The position numbers and the translations under genes were made by a program. Positions 7,118 to 44,887 of a DNA stretch of 49,198 bases are shown here, one piece after another; position 1 is the first letter of the stretch; each line of letters begins with the position of its first letter. Under the pieces are notes generated by a model. That model was not told the DNA's origin. It saw only the letters and a list, made by a program, of their open reading frames with translations, and searched no databases. Origin of the DNA: Fragilaria crotonensis (taxonomy: Eukaryota > Bacillariophyta > Fragilariophyceae > Fragilariales > Fragilariaceae); assembly GCA_022925895.1 (NCBI GenBank), contig JAKSYS010000482.1:1-49198 (forward strand), in the 5' to 3' direction.

Positions 7118-8546
7118 TTACGCTTCTATGTGATCCATTATAGAATCGCGGAGCCTGAGATGCTCGTCTAAGTCGTATAAGCATTCCCAACGTCGCTGCA
7201 CATACTGGAGCCGCAACGATTCAAGAATCCGACGTTCGCGATCTGTCATCGTGTCATCTTGCTGGTTGTTTGTTCCATAAAGTTGAGCATGAAGATGCAT
7301 TTCTGCAGCTCGTCGGTCAACGTATACTTGCTCTGCTTCGTCGGCAACTCCACCTGCTACCGGCGTGTCGTCGCCTCGAGCAAGTCCTGGAAATGCATAG
7401 AAGTCCTCGGATTCTTCTTCGTCTTGTGCCATTCGAGATGCTACCATCATGTTGTGAAGGCACAGACAACACTTCACGACACTAGCAATGTTGCTTACGT
7501 ACCACAGCTCAATTTTTCCAACGAGCAAATGGAATTTACGTTGGAGGACTCCGAAGGCTCGCTCAACATCCTTTCGTGCGGATTCTTGCCACACTGCATA
7601 CCGGCATGCTCTCCTCCCAACTGGCTCCTGCAAGGTTTTGACAAATCTACTCAATTCTGGGTAGATACCATCGACAAGAATCCAAAGACGATTGAAAACC
7701 TTTTCGTCACCGATTGTAAACTCAAAGTCCACGTCTCGTGCAAAGCTTCCGTCCAGGAATGCCTTCAACAAGCAGCTCCGGTTCCAAATGTTTCTGTCGT
7801 TCAAGGATCCAGGCCAACCAAAAGAGTGATGCCAAAACCACAAGTTGTGGTCAGCCATTGCTTCCAAAACAATGGTTGGTTTGCCCAACTTTCCCTTGTT
7901 CGCTCCCTGCCATGCCACTGGACAGTTTTTCCAGCCGACATGCATACAATCAAGTGACCCTACTACCATTCCAGCAACGCCGTGACAAGCCTCATGTAAG
8001 GCAGAAAGTCTCCGAGCATCACTGCGGGTCATCTGTCTCCCATACACACTTTGTAACTCATCTTTGGTCGACACAATTGTAGAAAACTTTATCAAGCTTC
8101 GACGAGCCAAAGTCTCGCTCATTTGGAAGTAATCCATGAACGCAGACGGGGAGCAGCCATATGCAAGCTGCTTGATTGCAACAAGCACCTTTGCCACCGG
8201 AGATATATTGTACCGTCCGGTGACATCCTGTATGTTGGTGAAGAAAGGGTCGGCTTTGCCACAGACCTGAACAAAGAGATTCAACAATTGATTTTGTGAC
8301 ACGAAAGATTCTTTCGAATTGTCTGTCATCAAAGAGAGGTGTCGGCGAGAAATAATCACTTTCAATAGCACGTCTTGCTCGTTCGTAGGAATATGATGAA
8401 AGTCGTGGTTTTTTCTTCATCCGTTCATCGTTGTCACCGCGGCTGATGCGAATCGTCCTCAAAGCAATTCGTGCAATTTGTTCAGCTTTAAGCTTCCGGC
8501 TGTCGTCAGCTCTCTTGGTGGTCTTGATATGTTGTCTCTTCTGCAT
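7118..8546 (-). pseudogene. PIF/Harbinger DDE transposase, one frameshift
   Basis: The product is a DDE superfamily nuclease that cuts and pastes the element. The N-terminal frame (from ATG 8546) gives the helical DNA-binding region including FERIFRVTKSIVESL. A single surplus base in the AAA run at 8273-8275 then shifts the frame, and the remaining 360 or so residues follow in the second frame to the stop at 7118. In the ORF opening at 8371 the catalytic residues are all present: SLDCMH (Asp141), VDGIYP (Asp234) and DVERAFG (Glu270), with the family motifs GWPGSLNDRNIW and LHNMMV. Apart from this indel the coding sequence looks healthy, so the break is either very recent or a homopolymer error in the sequence. 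Confidence 0.85.
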
Positions 8547-13245: not shown

Positions 13246-14019
13246 TGTATATTGTATCGAGCGCAGTGATGTGAGGTGTGAGGCGTGTGTCGTATATTCA
13301 GTATAATAGATAATAGGCGATCGGCGCCAATGGGTTCGTTCCTTTCTTGTCTTTTTGGACGACTATGAGCGTACCAATACTAGAGTTGGAGCACACCTGG
13401 CACTGAAGTAATCCGCGCGTGTTCGATGAAATCTAGCGTATAGCTTTAGCGTCACAATGAAGATGAAGTAATTAGGAATCCAAGCCGAGCAATCCAGCAC
13501 GTAGCGTCGAGCCTGAGAAGATTCACCCAGTACGATAGGACGATACGACGATTATGAATGCAAGGTGAAAGTTGACTGACACCACCACAACACCAAAGGC
13601 AAACAAAAGAACAAATATGAATTGGTTCTTGTTGCAAATGTGCTCTTCTGCGTGGGCTCAGTGTTCTTACGGATTGTGCAATGTGGACGACAATCAGGAG
13701 AACGGATCGATGTCGTTATTTTTTATGCTCATACCGATTTGTTGGATGTCCTGTTGACTCGTCGGTTTTGTGCGGTGATGAGTCGTCTGGTCCTAGTAGA
13801 GAGTTCTACGAGGAATGCTCGTAGTGGTGCAAAGCATGTCATCCCTCGTATGCATACTTGCAACTTGCATACAAGTCGTACAGTAGATAGGAGGGTTTCT
13901 TTGTGATTCGTGGATGGGCAGGTGGTGACATCGCACATTCCTCAATGCGTGGTCTGTCGTCGGCCGTATCATCATAGTTTGCGCTGCTTGTATGTCATAC
14001 GCTTGTGCTGTGCAGGATC
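13246..14019. other. Intergenic, no gene seen
   Basis: This is the upstream flank of the kinase gene, which is transcribed leftward from 13245. Small frames on both strands have no family resemblance. No TATA box or other promoter motif stands out. Confidence 0.5.
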
Positions 14020-14047
14020 CGATTAGAATGCAAGGAAATGACGTCAA
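14020..14047 (+). repeat. Left 28-bp inverted motif (contains TGACGTCA)
   Basis: It matches the complement of 16511-16538 exactly and the copy at 44134-44161 exactly. The palindrome TGACGTCA, a bZIP/CRE-type site, is at 14039-14046. Confidence 0.85.
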
Positions 14048-14302
14048 CATTATCGTCACAGTAATGAAGCTGCGTGGGACCTTCACGTAGAGCACAAGTG
14101 ACACGCGTAGGCCGAAGAAAACACGGAATCTTCGTTTCTCATTTTTTTCATGGGTTTTCCAATACGCCGGCCCAGCCTCTTCCACGCCAGCCCGTTAATG
14201 TTTGAATGTTGTTATGCGTGGAACAGCATACTTGAAACGACTCTCCGTTAGTACCGAATGATTTCCATTGCCATGTGTTATGTTTGCATATGATATTAGC
14301 CC

Positions 14303-14655
14303 TGTGCCGCCACTCTTATACGACGGCGGCATTTGCGGATTTTTTTCTACCAGTAATGCCGCCACTCGTACAACAGGGCGGCATTTGCGGATTATTTTCT
14401 ACCAGTAATGCCGCCACCACTCGTACAACATGGCAGCATTTGCGGATTTTTTTCTACCAGTAATGCCGCCACTCGTACAACAGGGCGGCATTTGCGGATT
14501 TTTTTCTACCAGTAATGCCGCCACTCGTACAACAGGGCGGCATTTGCGGATTATTTTCTACCAGTAATGCCGCCACTCGTACAACAGGGCGGCATTTGCG
14601 GATTATTTTCTACCAGTAATGCCGCCACTAGTCGTAAACGGCGGCGGCATTTGTG
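14303..14655 (+). repeat. Hairpin-forming 52-bp tandem repeats, array 1a (7 units)
   Basis: Units begin at about 14303, 14355, 14407, 14462, 14514, 14566 and 14618, a 52-bp period with one 55-bp unit. Each unit is AATGCCGCC, a roughly 13-base loop (usually ACTCGTACAACAG), GGCGGCATT, then a linker TGCGGATTATTTTCTACCAGT. The two arms pair perfectly over 9 bp in most units, so every unit can form a stem-loop as RNA or cruciform DNA. Loops vary more than stems. There is no reading frame across the array. Confidence 0.9.
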
Positions 14656-14738
14656 AATAACTATGATAATTCATCACACCTCGATCCATTTCAAGCAATG
14701 TGGTATGAACTACAATACTAATCAGTGTCTCTACCAGT

Positions 14739-14965
14739 AATGCCACCACTCGTACCCGACGGCTCATCTTGTGGATTATTTTCTACCAGTATTAATGCCG
14801 CCACTTGTATACAATGGCGGCATTTGTGGATTTTTTTCTACCAGTAATGCCGCCACTTGTATGCTGTGGCGGCATTTCCGGATTATTTTCTACCAGTAAT
14901 GCCGCCGCCTTCACAAATGGCGGCATTTGCGGATTATTTTCTACCAGTAATGCCGCCAATTGTTC
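14739..14965 (+). repeat. Hairpin-forming 52-bp repeats, array 1b (5 units)
   Basis: After about 80 bp of unrelated sequence the same repeat resumes with units at 14739, 14794, 14846, 14898 and 14948. Loops here differ (ACTTGTATACAAT, ACTTGTATGCTGT, GCCTTCACAAAT). The unit at 14739 has a broken right arm and the last unit is incomplete. Confidence 0.88.
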
Positions 14966-15005
14966 GGAGACATTATATATCTTAGTTTCATCAACAAGAA
15001 AGAGC

Positions 15006-15079
15006 AGCAATGCCTAGGTTAGTAGGTTACAAACTTGTTTTTTGAAACAAGGTCCGGGGTTCGATCCCCGAAAAATGCT
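15006..15079 (+). ncRNA. tRNA-like sequence with Pol III A- and B-box-like motifs
   Basis: The 74-base stretch contains a perfect B-box (GGTTCGATCC at about 15058) within a CGGGG/CCCCG stem. It also has an A-box-like TAGGTTAGTAGG at 15014-15025, one mismatch from TRGYNNARNNGG, and between them an anticodon-like stem CTTGT/ACAAG. The anticodon loop is one base too long and the D and acceptor stems pair poorly. It is therefore not a convincing functional tRNA and no anticodon is assigned. It may be a decayed tRNA or a SINE-like head. It lies between the two inverted hairpin arrays, and a T5 run at about 15288 could end a Pol III transcript. Confidence 0.35.
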
Positions 15080-15269
15080 AAAACCTATTTCTTGTGATAA
15101 TCAAAATTCGGAAACTATCGTGATGCGTAGTACAGTTGTGAAAAGGACACCGCTAGCTGTGACATTGTTCATGGTAGCAGCAGATCCGAGATCAACAGGG
15201 AAACCATCATGAGAAGGAGTACAGTTGTGAAGAAGCAAGAACAAGGCTGCTGTCTATGACGTTGCCATC

Positions 15270-15590
15270 ATTACTGGTAGCACACATTTTTGCAAATGCC
15301 GCCATTTTGGCGCAGTCAGCGGCATTACTGGTAGCGTATTATTCCCAAATGCTGCCATTTTCAAAGTTGGCAGCATTACTGGTAGCATTTCATTTGCAAT
15401 TGCCGCTGTTTGAAAAGTCGGTGGCATTACTGGTAGAAAATAATCCGGAAATGCCGCCTTCGTGAAGGAGCGGCGGCATTACTGGTAGAAAATAATCCGG
15501 AAATGCCGCCACAGCATACAAGTGGCGGCATTACTGGTAGAAAATTATTCGGAAATGCCGCCATTTACAAAGTTGGCGACATTACTGAAA
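15270..15590 (-). repeat. Hairpin-forming 52-bp repeats, array 2, opposite orientation (6 units)
   Basis: This is the same repeat on the opposite strand, with ATTACTGGTAG starts at 15270, 15324, 15375, 15426, 15478 and 15530. The unit at about 15501-15530 has the loop ACAGCATACAAGT, the exact complement of the loop of the unit at 14846, and its neighbours also resemble the complements of neighbouring units in array 1b. The two arrays therefore form a large inverted repeat, with its centre near 15200. Confidence 0.88.
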
Positions 15591-15977
15591 GCAATGCTGT
15601 TTGTCTACGTGAATGCAACAATGATTAAAATTTAGGCCTCTCCCTTGCTTATTCTTAAACGCTACTTCACTACTCCACTGGCTGATTTCTAGAAAGACCG
15701 CTGTGACACCGACAAAGAGATGGCTTCATCTTGCACTTTGTTACAAACTTTGCCACTCCCTACATAGCTTCTGTACGTTGCTCGACCTGTGGCCTGCACC
15801 ATTGCAGCATTGCCTTGCACTTTGGATGTCCTGATTGTCCCACCTTTTCTACAGCAACTACATACTCCTTTCAAAGCAACCGCTCTGATGGAATTATGTT
15901 ATTTGCCATCAGAACACCAGAGTTACGGTACTTCTATAGCATCCTCAACAAAAATATTAGCAAAAGTAAATAAGGAC

Positions 15978-16270
15978 CATGTTGCGTAGCAGTACATCTT
16001 TTGAAGCTACGCATTCTTCTGGATCCTAAGAAAGGCAGGACAATGAATGGCGAGAGTGTCGTGTCAGCATCACAGATTACAGTAAAGCGACAGGGATTGA
16101 AGCGACAAAAACATGTTGCATAGCAGTAAATTTCACTTACAGTTCGTGCTCTTCTTTTGAATCTACCCATTCTTCTGGATCACAATGGCAGGACAATGAA
16201 TGGAGAGAGTTGTGTCATGTCAGCATCACAGATTATGGCAAAGCAACAGGGATTGAAGCAACAAAAACAA
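15978..16270. repeat. Direct tandem duplication, period 134 bp
   Basis: Copy 1 starts CATGTTGCGTAGCAGTA at 15978 and copy 2 CATGTTGCATAGCAGTA at 16112. Both contain CATTCTTCTGGATC, GGCAGGACAATGAATGG, GTCAGCATCACAGATTA and CAACAGGGATTGAAGC-like blocks with small indels. No coding potential is seen. Confidence 0.85.
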
Positions 16271-16510
16271 ACGAACCATGGTATTGACCATGAAATGGTA
16301 AAATTATGGTGTATACGGACGGAAATTGTGGGCATTGCAATGATATCATCACATCAATGCAGGAAGAATTTTATTTCTGTTCAAACTAATGTCGGGCACA
16401 TTTATGCTCTTTATCTACAATGAAGTTTTGAATACAAGCGTCTTGAAAAATTGCTCCAGGTGAAGTGAGAAAATCAAGATTCCAAAAACTCAAATTCTGC
16501 GACAAAAATG

Positions 16511-16538
16511 TTGACGTCATTTCCTTGCATTCTAATCG
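16511..16538 (-). repeat. Right 28-bp inverted motif (contains TGACGTCA)
   Basis: This is the perfect inverted partner of 14020-14047. TGACGTCA lies at 16512-16519. Confidence 0.85.
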
Positions 16539-17187
16539 CTTCCACATTTGACATGTCATGCTATGATATACTACAGTATTCAGCATACTGCATGAATAGC
16601 CTACCCTTGACATGGTGTCGTATGATAACGTCCGCCTGTGAAATACTGGTTCTACAGTATTGTACTGCTACGAGCTACTAGTAGTATAATGCGCCTCTGA
16701 TGGTGCCTTCCAAGTGGAATCGTACAAGTAGTGGCATCGCAGGCGATGGTTGGCAGTATGATACAAGTTCGTACAAGTACTGTACGAACCCGGTATGATA
16801 CTCGTATTTGGGCTATAGGCAGAAGGCCCAGGCGACCTTTTCTTGGGAGATGGCTTTGGCTGGACAGTACTACAGTAAAGTACGGTACAGTACAGGACTT
16901 CAAGTCTACGTGTCCGTACTGAGTACTGCGTACTTCATACTCGCTTGCAGCGTGTACCCTCAGAGTATGCATAATTGTCTACTCGAGTATAGTCTTTGAG
17001 TACCATTCCTACTTACCAGGTACTACTACTGGCGCATAAGTATTCCAGTACAGTACTTTTATGCCTCAGCCACCCACCACCCACCACCCACCGCAAACAT
17101 GAAAATTGTGAAGAAATCATCTCGATGGCTAACCATTAGCTCAATCAAAATCACCTACCGTCATCAACAACTCACAACGGTATCGAC
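16539..17187. other. GTAC-dense intergenic region upstream of DUS3
   Basis: I count 17 GTAC tetranucleotides between 16661 and 17060, against 1-2 expected by chance. Many are in AGTACT or overlapping palindromic clusters. At about 17066-17094 there is a CCACCCACCACCCACC simple repeat, about 95 bp before the DUS3 start codon. No gene is seen. Confidence 0.7.
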
Positions 17188-42000: not shown

Positions 42001-44133
42001 TGTCTGTCAACAAGCAGCCCCGCTTGGCCTTCCATTGCAGGTACAAAAACAAATAATGTTATTTACGCACTGCCGCGGCATCCAACAAAGATGATGTTCA
42101 TCCCACAAAGCCCAACAATATTGTCGAAGCAATAGCATCAGAAAAAACTGGTAGCATGCACAGCAATCATGGGTCATGTTTGACTCCAATGCACTCTATC
42201 ATTACCATTTGTTCATGGTACTAGTATGCAACTGCTGGATGGCTGAAATGGGGGGAACATCGTGCAGGTTGGTGATGTGACTGTGCTCTCGTCAGCACTC
42301 TGAGTGCTGGTAAAGGACTAGCTGCTGATCATGCGCTGACTGCTGGTGATGGCGGTGATCCGATTGCTGATGCTGGTGAGCGATTTGACTGTTGACAAAC
42401 TGACTGATGCTGGGCATTGTGGTATTTCTGGTCTGGAATATGGAATTCATTAAATTGAATGCACAAACTTGTCACCAATTTGTAGCATTGTTTTTCAATG
42501 AAACTGTCAGCTGGGAGTTAGCACTGTTATGCCCACGCTCATCTTGTTGAAAGGGGCCCTGTTCCTCTCGTTTGATAATCGGAGTGCTTATGGGAAACTG
42601 ACTGCAAATGACAGAGTTATGCTCCTGTGGTATGTGCGTACTGCTTGGAGGTTTGGTAATGTAGAAAACACACCAGGTAGTCAAATAGAAGTTTTGTTTC
42701 TTGACCTGGAAAGTCAAGCAAGTCCTTGAACTTTTGACCTTTCTCTCTGCTCTTCTCATTTTCTTTCTTTAAGCGCTCACGGGGGTCACTCTTTATGTTC
42801 GGAAGAAGGAGCGAAACACATTGTGGTAGAAATTTCATGATGTCGATGAAGTCTGCGCGTGGTGTTAGTCAAAGAAACGGTACTAGAGGGCCCACCCTTC
42901 CATGATGCTTAGTTTGCTTCGTCCAGTGCGTCATCAAAACAATTCTAGAAAATCCGGTAGTACTAATGTCAAAGCAAAACTTGAGTTGGCATAAATTCTA
43001 CCTCAATTACAATACTCTTTTTGATAATGGGCCCCATGCCACTTAAATCAGTAAATGTAAAGATTTATGTAGAAATAGCTAGTAAGGAACACCAAAAACA
43101 AATTGTGAACTACATGAACTAGCAGGCAGTTCCTGGTAACAGAATGGGCCTCGTCCTCGTCAGAACACAAGCAATGGGTTTGCCATATGCATTGTACGTA
43201 AGATGATGTGCTGGCTGGGTACTATCATACTTGCGGCTTTGTATACATTCTTAAACATTCTACCTCTTACTCTTACAGTTCTTCTTAGTGACAAGGTTTG
43301 TTCGAGAAGAAGTAGTCTACCTTTTACCTCTACGAAGCTTCTTGGTGACAAGGTTGATCAAGTAGAAGTGGGGGTGAGAGAAGTGCTGTCCAACTCTCCC
43401 AACACTCCAATAACAGCACATTGGATTCCTGATGGCAGATCATATACTGGTGTGCTAAAGAACTGTCAGCCAGCATAGGGGATGCATTGAAGCAAAACTA
43501 TGAAAAAGGCATGCACATGATTGCAGCAGGTGGTGGTCAACAGGCACATTGAAACCAACAGGATATAATTGCCATGGTACTACCTTGGCAACCATGTAGC
43601 CTAGTAGGCTTTGTTATTGGGACTGATGGAAACAAGTTGGCAAAAGCTACAGCACAGGACCCCACCGGAACGGGGAGTCAGGGAGCCAGCAATCCGACAA
43701 TCAAGAAGGTCTGTTCCTTGAGTCACAGCTGATCAACTTTGCAGCCATTGTTTCTCAATATTAGATTGTAGGGAAGCTCAAACAAGTGGAGTTTGCAAAC
43801 AACTCCTGATCTCGTTTTCTTTGTTGTCGTCTGCTTCCAGCCTGTTATACAGTCGGGAGTACCTGTACTATTTACTATAACTCCAGCAACTTCTGAAGTG
43901 GTAGTACCACAGCACAATACTGGAGAAACCTCTACGGTATACTCGAAGCCAACGGTAGTACGGTAGTACTACTAGTAGGTACTTGTACTTGCTCAGTAGC
44001 AAATATTGTACAGTAGTTAGAAAGGAAGGGTGCTGTAGGACGTCGAAGTACTGTAGTACCGTGTAAAACGCTCTAACCAGTAACAGTACTTTTACCCGGT
44101 ACTGTCCTACTTGGAAATACGGGAGTACGGATC
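39086..44133. other. 5-kb stretch without a convincing gene
   Basis: I read both strands and see only short frames with no recognisable family. A minus-strand frame at 40995-40777 has a faint ankyrin-like piece (INSMHLAIKAGRKSALLVVF) and may be a relic. 42270-42420 is rich in GCTGATG/GCTGGTGA-type words. 43860-44130 is dense in GTAC and AGTACT. No TIR pair or LTR was found by eye, but old elements could be hidden here. Confidence 0.45.
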
Positions 44134-44288
44134 CGATTAGAATGCAAGGAAATGACGTCAAGCCGTACCAATCAGCATGCTCTCCCTATGCTACTGTCTT
44201 ACTGGAATACTGTATCACCGTAGGTAGCACTTGAAAACTTCAGTACTGTGACGTCATCCTTGACATCATTTCCTTGCATTCTAATCGA
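44134..44288. mobile_element. Short (155 bp) inverted-repeat element of the 14-kb family
   Basis: 44134-44161 is identical to 14020-14047, and 44261-44288 is its inverted copy with one change (TGACATCA instead of TGACGTCA). The next bases inside the right end (CGTCACAGTACTGAAG on minus) also match those inside the 14-kb left end (CGTCACAGTAATGAAG). This is a minimal, MITE-like member of the same family. TGACGTCA occurs at 44153-44160 and 44250-44257. Confidence 0.7.
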
Positions 44289-44887
44289 AACTTCCCATTT
44301 CTTTGGAGCGTGCGCGCCAGTACTTTCACGCAGGCGCAGGCCCCTCTACCGGTACATCAAGATGGTGCATTGCCAAGACATGCAACGACACAATCAGTGC
44401 TGGAAATTAACTGGATTTTGTGTGTGTAGGCAGTCGCAACAGGTGCCCAATTCGGCCAACGGATTCAAGTATAATTGAAATATATACAGTTCTAGTAATA
44501 AACAAATGGAAATAAGAACCCGTGCGATTGTTGGACAGCCTTCCTCGCAAAGCAGGCAGGCCGGTCGTGGCTTGGGAGAAGGCAAGCGTGTCTTTGAAAC
44601 ACATGTTTTCATCTAATAGATATATACGTAGTAGCATTGCACGAGTAGTGTGGGAACATGATTACTCCGCCTAAAAACGATCTTTATCATACGACATTTC
44701 CTCATTCAGATGAAAGCTATTGCACAGACACGGAACATACCAGACTCCAGATTCGACTCCGCACTCCAGTGTTTGAGGGTATTCCATTTGCCATCAATTG
44801 TCATTCATAGCTCCTGCTCAAGCACCTCCTACCGCTACTAGTTGCTAGAATCTATCATCAAAAGTCCCTGACGGCTGACAGCAAAAC
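44289..44887. other. Upstream region of the long ORF
   Basis: No gene seen. It presumably contains the promoter of the plus-strand gene starting at 44888. No clear TATA or initiator. Confidence 0.4.

Follow-up and report, generated by a model that had tools for sequence, protein, structure and literature searches.

The hairpin-forming repeats at positions 14303–15590 of the window (the whole 49,198-bp stretch of Fragilaria crotonensis DNA that was analysed) very probably form the interior of a degraded cut-and-paste DNA transposon of the Mutator-like (MULE) type, in a copy that is non-autonomous. Arrays of this general kind are already known, the family that carries them is unusual, and its most interesting aspect is the insertion pattern: as read from sequence alignments, at most sites for which an unoccupied relative is available exactly 6 target bases have been replaced by the terminal bases of the element, without duplication. 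What was an unexplained hairpin array can thereby be studied as a transposon family that is open to tests and includes copies bearing a transposase.

Structure of the window copy

The features of the copy are listed in Table 1. The flanks around different copies are unrelated to each other, while the inverted ends are constant. The terminal inverted repeats are 32 bp long, which is short for a MULE, and their 26-bp core (GATTAGAATGCAAGGAAATGACGTCA) is invariant in 17 aligned miniatures and has 265 matches with up to 2 mismatches in the 62.1-Mb genome (134 forward and 131 reverse), the reversed control giving none. The initial annotation had proposed a search of other contigs for the array unit and had allowed for its occurring nowhere else in the genome; copies do exist elsewhere, with at least 82 array matches on 29 contigs (best 40 of 43 candidates scored). 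An assembly artefact is an unlikely source of the arrays, since other contigs carry a near-identical copy (C768; 97.5% identity to the window copy over 2070 columns) as well as related ones. The left flank of C768 matches the window at 99% over 831 columns.

Table 1. Features of the transposon copy and its arrays in window coordinates
Feature	Position	Strand	Remark
Whole transposon copy, read as non-autonomous and internally deleted, 2529 bp	14015..16543	+	similarity to other copies starts at 14015; inverted ends
Left end, GGATCC + 26-bp core GATTAGAATGCAAGGAAATGACGTCA	14015..14046	+	
Plus-oriented array	14303..14974	+	12 hairpin units, ~52 bp each
Non-repeat interruption of plus array	14652..14730	+	
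75-bp exact inverted repeat, first arm	14834..14908	+	unit common to both arrays
Centre between arrays	14975..15263	.	middle near 15120
Minus-oriented array, including outer spacer	15264..15591	-	6 units; hairpins 15295–15583
75-bp exact inverted repeat, second arm	15470..15544	-	partner of 14834–14908
Right terminal 385 bp	16159..16543	+	common to large copies C54, C114 and C270, 80–81% identity
Right end, GGAAGC + inverted GATTAGAATGCAAGGAAATGACGTCA core	16512..16543	-	

The distance from the left end to the first array is 288 bp, and about 950 bp separate the second array from the right end. The arrays contain 18 hairpins, 12 in plus and 6 in minus orientation, in agreement with the two oppositely oriented arrays of about 18 units reported for this place before, and the commonest hairpin spacing of 52 bp agrees with the repeat length first given. 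Units of the plus array have the order CTACCAGT-AATGCCGCC-loop-GGCGGCATT-TGCGGATTATTTT, where the arms AATGCCGCC and GGCGGCATT pair at 9 of 9 positions in 11 of the 18 hairpins and at 4–8 of 9 in the remaining 7, so that the description of every unit as perfectly pairing was too strong. The loops are indeed variable in length, at 8–16 bases rather than the 12–16 first stated, and the centre of the two arrays, earlier placed near 15200, lies instead near 15120, in the middle of the gap given in Table 1. The complementarity noted for the loops of the units at 14846 and about 15501 is more extensive than claimed, as these units (at 14846 and 15502) belong to the exact 75-bp inverted repeat. Perfect 9-bp arms with 8–18-base loops occur 17 times in the 1290-bp array region against 19 times in the rest of the window (47.9 kb), and the hairpins of the arrays are thus not due to chance. 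Single-strand folding of 1289 nt, which the initial annotation had suggested, predicts one long imperfect duplex with a minimum free energy of −592.9 kcal/mol, a value given without a shuffled control.

Both ends of the window copy can be aligned with those of four large copies, C388, C54, C114 and C270. As aligned with C388, positions 14015–14606 correspond to the left end and the first array, 15269–15587 to the minus array (6910–7480 in C388, flanked by the second ORF and the transposase), and 16174–16543 to the right end, with 79–89% identity in the matched stretches outside the minus array. These matches to the array and end segments of C388 indicate that the window copy is related to the large copies and has undergone internal deletion, its two opposed arrays having been inherited. 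Positions 14663–14730, at the interruption of the plus array, match C388 1175–1245 (79%), a stretch reaching from the first array to the 3′ end of ORF1, which suggests that the interruption (14652–14730) probably marks the place where ORF1 was lost. Between the arrays, 15109–15235 is a single copy of a ~135-bp unit that stands in tandem beside the second ORF in large copies (3 units in C388, 2 in C54 and 2 in C270).

The element centre at 15007–15080, which is present in other copies, contains the string GGTTCGATCCCCG, presumably a tRNA-like B-box motif. ARAGORN (bacterial code) finds no tRNA at this string near 15055 and Rfam gives no match there; throughout the window, Rfam, including miRNA precursors, gives no match at the gathering threshold and sub-threshold scores only. 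A free-standing satellite and a tRNA-derived element are both rejected as explanations, because the arrays are enclosed in a repeat that has ends of its own.

Family copies and coding capacity

Copies with the same core fall into three size classes, comprising miniatures, which are mostly 164 bp long and have the same ends without arrays (17 aligned, further ones found), array copies of 1.9–2.8 kb (the window copy, C328, C586, C241 and C248, the last with a sister array type), and copies of about 5–10 kb (C130, C270, C198, C114, C54 and C388). The window contains a second family copy, a 164-bp miniature at 44129–44292 with the ends GGATCC and AGTTTC.

The transposase frame of the large copies reads inward from the right end, and the window copy itself is without transposase. 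The MULE domain PF10551 exceeds its cut-off (27.6 bits) in 2 of the 8 proteins scanned, those of C114 (E 4e-12, 46.9 bits) and C198 (E 1.1e-6, 29.5 bits), where PF21056 (ZSWIM1-3_RNaseH-like) scores slightly above it at 49.2 and 44.4 bits, respectively (cut-off 27.2). Residues of the MULE domain are legible by eye in translations of C388, C54, C786, C57, C860 and others, C114 and C198 alone being supported by profile HMM. FAR1 scores 14.1 and 14.9 bits, under its cut-off of 28.1, and the C-terminal frame gives no Pfam match to a SWIM zinc finger, a C-terminal feature of many MULE lineages, its SWIM-like Cys/His pattern (CxC..CxH-like) being seen by eye only. The transposase frames are interrupted in the large copies and no intact gene was established, the frames having been read without intron models. 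A different transposon family is represented in the window by an open frame at 7118–8371 on the minus strand, which matches Plant_tran (E 7e-54) and DDE_Tnp_4 and which we take to be, probably, a Harbinger-type transposase.

The order of genes and arrays was mapped in C388, C54, C270 and part of C860, with C130, C198, C114, C786 and C57 left out. C388 consists of the left end, a plus array, ORF1 (−), a plus array, tandem ~135-bp repeats, the second ORF (+), a minus array, the transposase (−) and the right end; C54 and C270 have this order minus ORF1, C860 matches it in part, and C388 and C860 carry a further plus array on the far side of the extra ORF. The long ORF1 of C388 and C860 is 98% identical between the two. 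In C388 it contains DUF6824, a diatom-rich domain, above cut-off (61 bits versus 27); a literature search by this domain name found no paper. OrfB_IS605 in ORF1 reaches E 0.0016 at 19 bits, under its cut-off of 30.5, and an assignment as acetyltransferase is unproven, as the match to N-alpha-acetyltransferase 60 (E 0.2) falls short. The second ORF, aligned from C388, C54, C786 and C270, has no significant family match, and its assignment as a 2-oxoglutarate oxygenase is likewise unproven, the indications being Cupin_2 (E 0.23) and the oxidoreductase 8acv (E 2.3), which fall short.

Two further arrangements of arrays were observed. One array set occurs twice in C57 (C57:19930–22307 and C57:39328–41717) as mirror images about 17 kb apart, which suggests that a large stretch was duplicated in inverted orientation or that the contig was joined there in assembly. 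The C54 copy (L013, C54:76000–80600, 582–667; C54:74884–75587) adjoins the sister array type with the palindromic spacer CATTAGTGG..CCACTAATG, and here an element with arrays may lie within a second one.

Possible roles of the arrays

Arrays of palindromic ~52-bp units separate the genes of the mapped large relatives, with a plus array inside the left end and a minus array between the second ORF and the transposase. In the window copy, loss of the ORFs and of most of the transposase region has left the arrays nearly facing each other. Mobility would depend on the ~32–50-bp inverted ends rather than on the arrays, because array-less miniatures with the same ends exist. Four partly overlapping readings of the arrays are considered, as recombination joints, as protein-binding sites, as sequences without a role and as sources of RNA, in this order of probability.

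The first of these, placed at the head with a confidence a little short of even, is that the arrays act as recombination joints, at which units are exchanged between arrays and the modules lying between are lost or swapped; hairpin formation would favour such exchange. This reading is suggested by the position of the arrays at gene borders, by the unit common to both arrays, by the unequal unit numbers, and by C270, where the open frame of a shortened transposase stops about 10 bp before an array.

A total of 251 array units were extracted and 184 distinct ones of 46–60 bp were aligned. Ten stem pairs are Watson–Crick in 1499 of 1818 cells, against 296–686 of 1805–1819 when the partner column is slid by 1–3. 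Of the 120 double-changed stem cells, 78 belong to a single C-G/T-A pair by which two subfamilies differ and 28 to the pair that closes the loop; independent compensatory events are therefore few. Arm mismatches of the A-C type are, by eye, no rarer than those of the G-U type, so that pairing in RNA is not singled out over palindromes in DNA.

This last observation tells against a model in which the arrays would be transcribed into stem-loops or long double-stranded RNA, products that the initial annotation had thought possible, and would feed small-RNA silencing of the family, as it gives no sign of selection on RNA pairing. The long duplex predicted by folding is consistent with such a model, as are miRNA-precursor-like scores below threshold (for example 31.4 bits against a gathering threshold of 80), of a kind that chance hairpins can give, and the model is considered quite improbable.

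The arrays may instead be selected sites at gene borders for an element-encoded DNA-binding protein, either the transposase or a VANC-like anti-silencing factor, serving expression control or protection from silencing. The palindromic units are kept through the C-G to T-A double change between subfamilies, and C248, which has the family ends, carries the sister array (CATTAGTGG..CCACTAATG spacer), whose palindromic spacer CATTAGTGGTAGAAAATTATCCACTAATG is found 64 times forward and 39 times reverse when up to 3 mismatches are allowed, the control giving none. In the available passages of PMC5735166 and PMC10398659, VANC is moreover reported as a sequence-specific anti-silencing factor of VANDALs. 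However, the miniatures are without arrays, so the arrays seem dispensable for mobility in cis, and no VANC-like protein was found, the second ORF having no significant family match and ORF1 containing DUF6824 only. We regard binding sites as unlikely, second in rank to recombination joints.

A little less likely again are arrays without any role, produced by selfish tandem expansion of a palindrome within the transposon, with similarity kept by conversion. Such expansion would agree with the 7 imperfect hairpins among the 18 of the window and with the variable unit number between copies (8–12 plus-oriented anchors, namely 11 in the window copy, 12 in C768, 8 in C586, 11 in C328 and 11 in C274), but diverged copies again have arrays at their gene borders, and two subfamilies have kept the palindrome.

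Insertion sites and comparison with known elements

MULEs normally leave target-site duplications of 8–11 bp, and such duplications are absent from this family. No duplication of at least 3 bp is found among 46 copies that have both ends, counted after removal of exact duplicates; the adjacent direct repeats measure 0, 1 and 2 bp in 35, 9 and 2 copies, respectively, and 8-bp near-repeats near the ends occur in 1 of the 46, the mean after shuffling being 1.04. An ordinary insertion whose duplication is hidden is rejected, as none is present in 27 copies, where the mean longest shared word is 3.59 against 3.58 after shuffling, nor in the 46.

Unoccupied sites were searched with the joined flanks of 46 copies in sets of 18 (the first of 26), 23 (of 23) and 5 (the first of 8), and the best 40 of 279, 40 of 224 and 40 of 64 candidates, respectively, were scored. 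L045 was left out, its right flank being shared with L043; L078 and L086, and probably L098 and L107, represent the same insertion entered twice, and in a repeat query of 3 joined flanks a few end letters are missing from the queries. At least 11 insertions have an unoccupied relative, a lower bound since the best 40 candidates were scored per search, and at 8 of these 11 the flanks stand exactly 6 bp apart in the relative. The six target bases are gone at 7 of the 8 sites, while at one, five of the six seem to be kept.

The 6-bp spacing is given by alignment at L047 (AGTAAG replaced, 5 unoccupied relatives), L054 (AATGCT replaced, 1 relative), L095 (1 relative), L080 (CGTGCG, 3 of 4 relatives clean), C328 (AATGGT, 5 relatives read) and C241 (AGAACT), the last two being array-bearing relatives of the window copy. 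At L102 (TGTAGT), the seventh site with the spacing by alignment, one of 3 relatives is clean by alignment and a second by hand reading, and at L079 (TGCAGC) the spacing comes from hand reading of the alignments, the aligner having placed it otherwise. Among 37 listed relatives of the C328 site, 24 are longer than the query stretch by 6 bases and the others differ by −1 to +12. The sites that do not fit or are unreadable are L085 (8 bp), L056 (6 bp with a 4-bp shift) and L107. For the window copy's own insertion, the genome search found no unoccupied site.

The exceptional site is L080 (C98), whose right end reads GGTGCG, as compared with CGTGCG in the unoccupied site and the usual end GGATCC; five of its six bases are read as target, so that five target bases seem to have been kept. 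At least one odd 6-base end is present in 14 of 42 tabulated copies. A target origin of such ends, backed by an unoccupied site at L080 alone, is not claimed for all of them, and L079, listed as odd, has on hand reading the normal end GGATCC, with a 3-bp insertion after it. L098 and L107 (C476 and C877) are miniatures in one repeated context with the ends CATACC and CACACC instead of GGATCC, whose outer bases may be target-derived, the unoccupied relative L121 being too diverged to tell.

The replaced 6 bases stand at the position of a would-be 6-bp duplication. A MULE-type transposase would join the element to a target cut with a 6-base stagger, of a polarity opposite to that of described relatives. 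The 6-base single-stranded ends of the element would pair with the 6 target bases lying between the cuts and in most cases overwrite them. Six base pairs would thereby be replaced and none duplicated, and occasionally target bases would survive at one end. That a stagger of opposite polarity, with element overhangs filling the gap, explains the insertion pattern is proposed tentatively, as a possibility that we hold to be on balance somewhat doubtful. If the replacement is general, it would be a departure from the Mutator-group rule of 8–11-bp target duplication and might explain the "No TSD" listing of diatom MULEs, and searches demanding target-site duplications would miss such families. Some bacterial conjugative transposons use coupling sequences, and these are closer to the proposed insertion than classical DDE insertion is.

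VANC proteins bind short repeats in non-coding parts of VANDALs, and such repeats are a feature in common with the present family. VANDAL MULEs with VANC, as described in the available source passages, resemble the present family in being MULEs that carry a non-transposase gene; unlike them, the Fragilaria crotonensis family has no VANC relative that we found. Long inverted repeats of tandem sub-repeats, as in Foldback elements, are present in the window copy and in other copies, whereas in textbook Foldback elements the arrays are terminal and here they are internal and do not form the termini. The FARE foldback elements of Arabidopsis, as cited in the passages of PMC3169594 at hand, combine a foldback structure with a MULE-domain transposase, and FARE/FB elements have composite terminal repeats according to the same source, in contrast to the internal arrays here.

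Among the matches listed, no title or opening of an abstract describes a 6-bp replacement in the literature on MULEs or transposons without duplication, on target-site deletion, or on diatom Mutator-like or foldback elements. An earlier diatom survey mentions Mutator-like families without detail of such a replacement in the passages available (PMC2806351). MULE-Diatoms, group 37 of a 2019 Mutator survey, is a stramenopile group with a SWIM zinc finger that is listed as "No TSD and not indicated" (PMC6446971, available passages). This group agrees with the present family in the "No TSD" entry and is set apart by its description, with terminal inverted repeats of 123–124 bp against ~32–50 bp here; the passages available describe no arrays or 6-bp replacement (PMC6446971).

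A further close comparison is with the Mutator/Foldback family Tm1 of Meloidogyne, which, in the available passages of PMC3169594, has a MULE-type transposase, repeat-laden inverted repeats, and miniature and gene-carrying derivatives. The initial annotation knew of no described element with the layout of two opposed arrays; since Tm1 was already published with inverted-orientation tandem repeats (PMC3169594), the layout is not new in kind. The two families share the MULE transposase, repeat arrays in inverted orientation, miniatures, and short motifs at the termini, asymmetric and lying outside the inverted repeat, of 7 bp in Tm1 and 6 bp in the Fragilaria crotonensis family (PMC3169594). They differ, as far as these passages describe Tm1, in that its ~14-bp repeats lie in the terminal repeats, whereas the ~52-bp palindromic units here are internal, and in that 45 of 53 Tm1 copies have duplications of 8–10 bp (PMC3169594), against 0 of 46 with at least 3 bp here.
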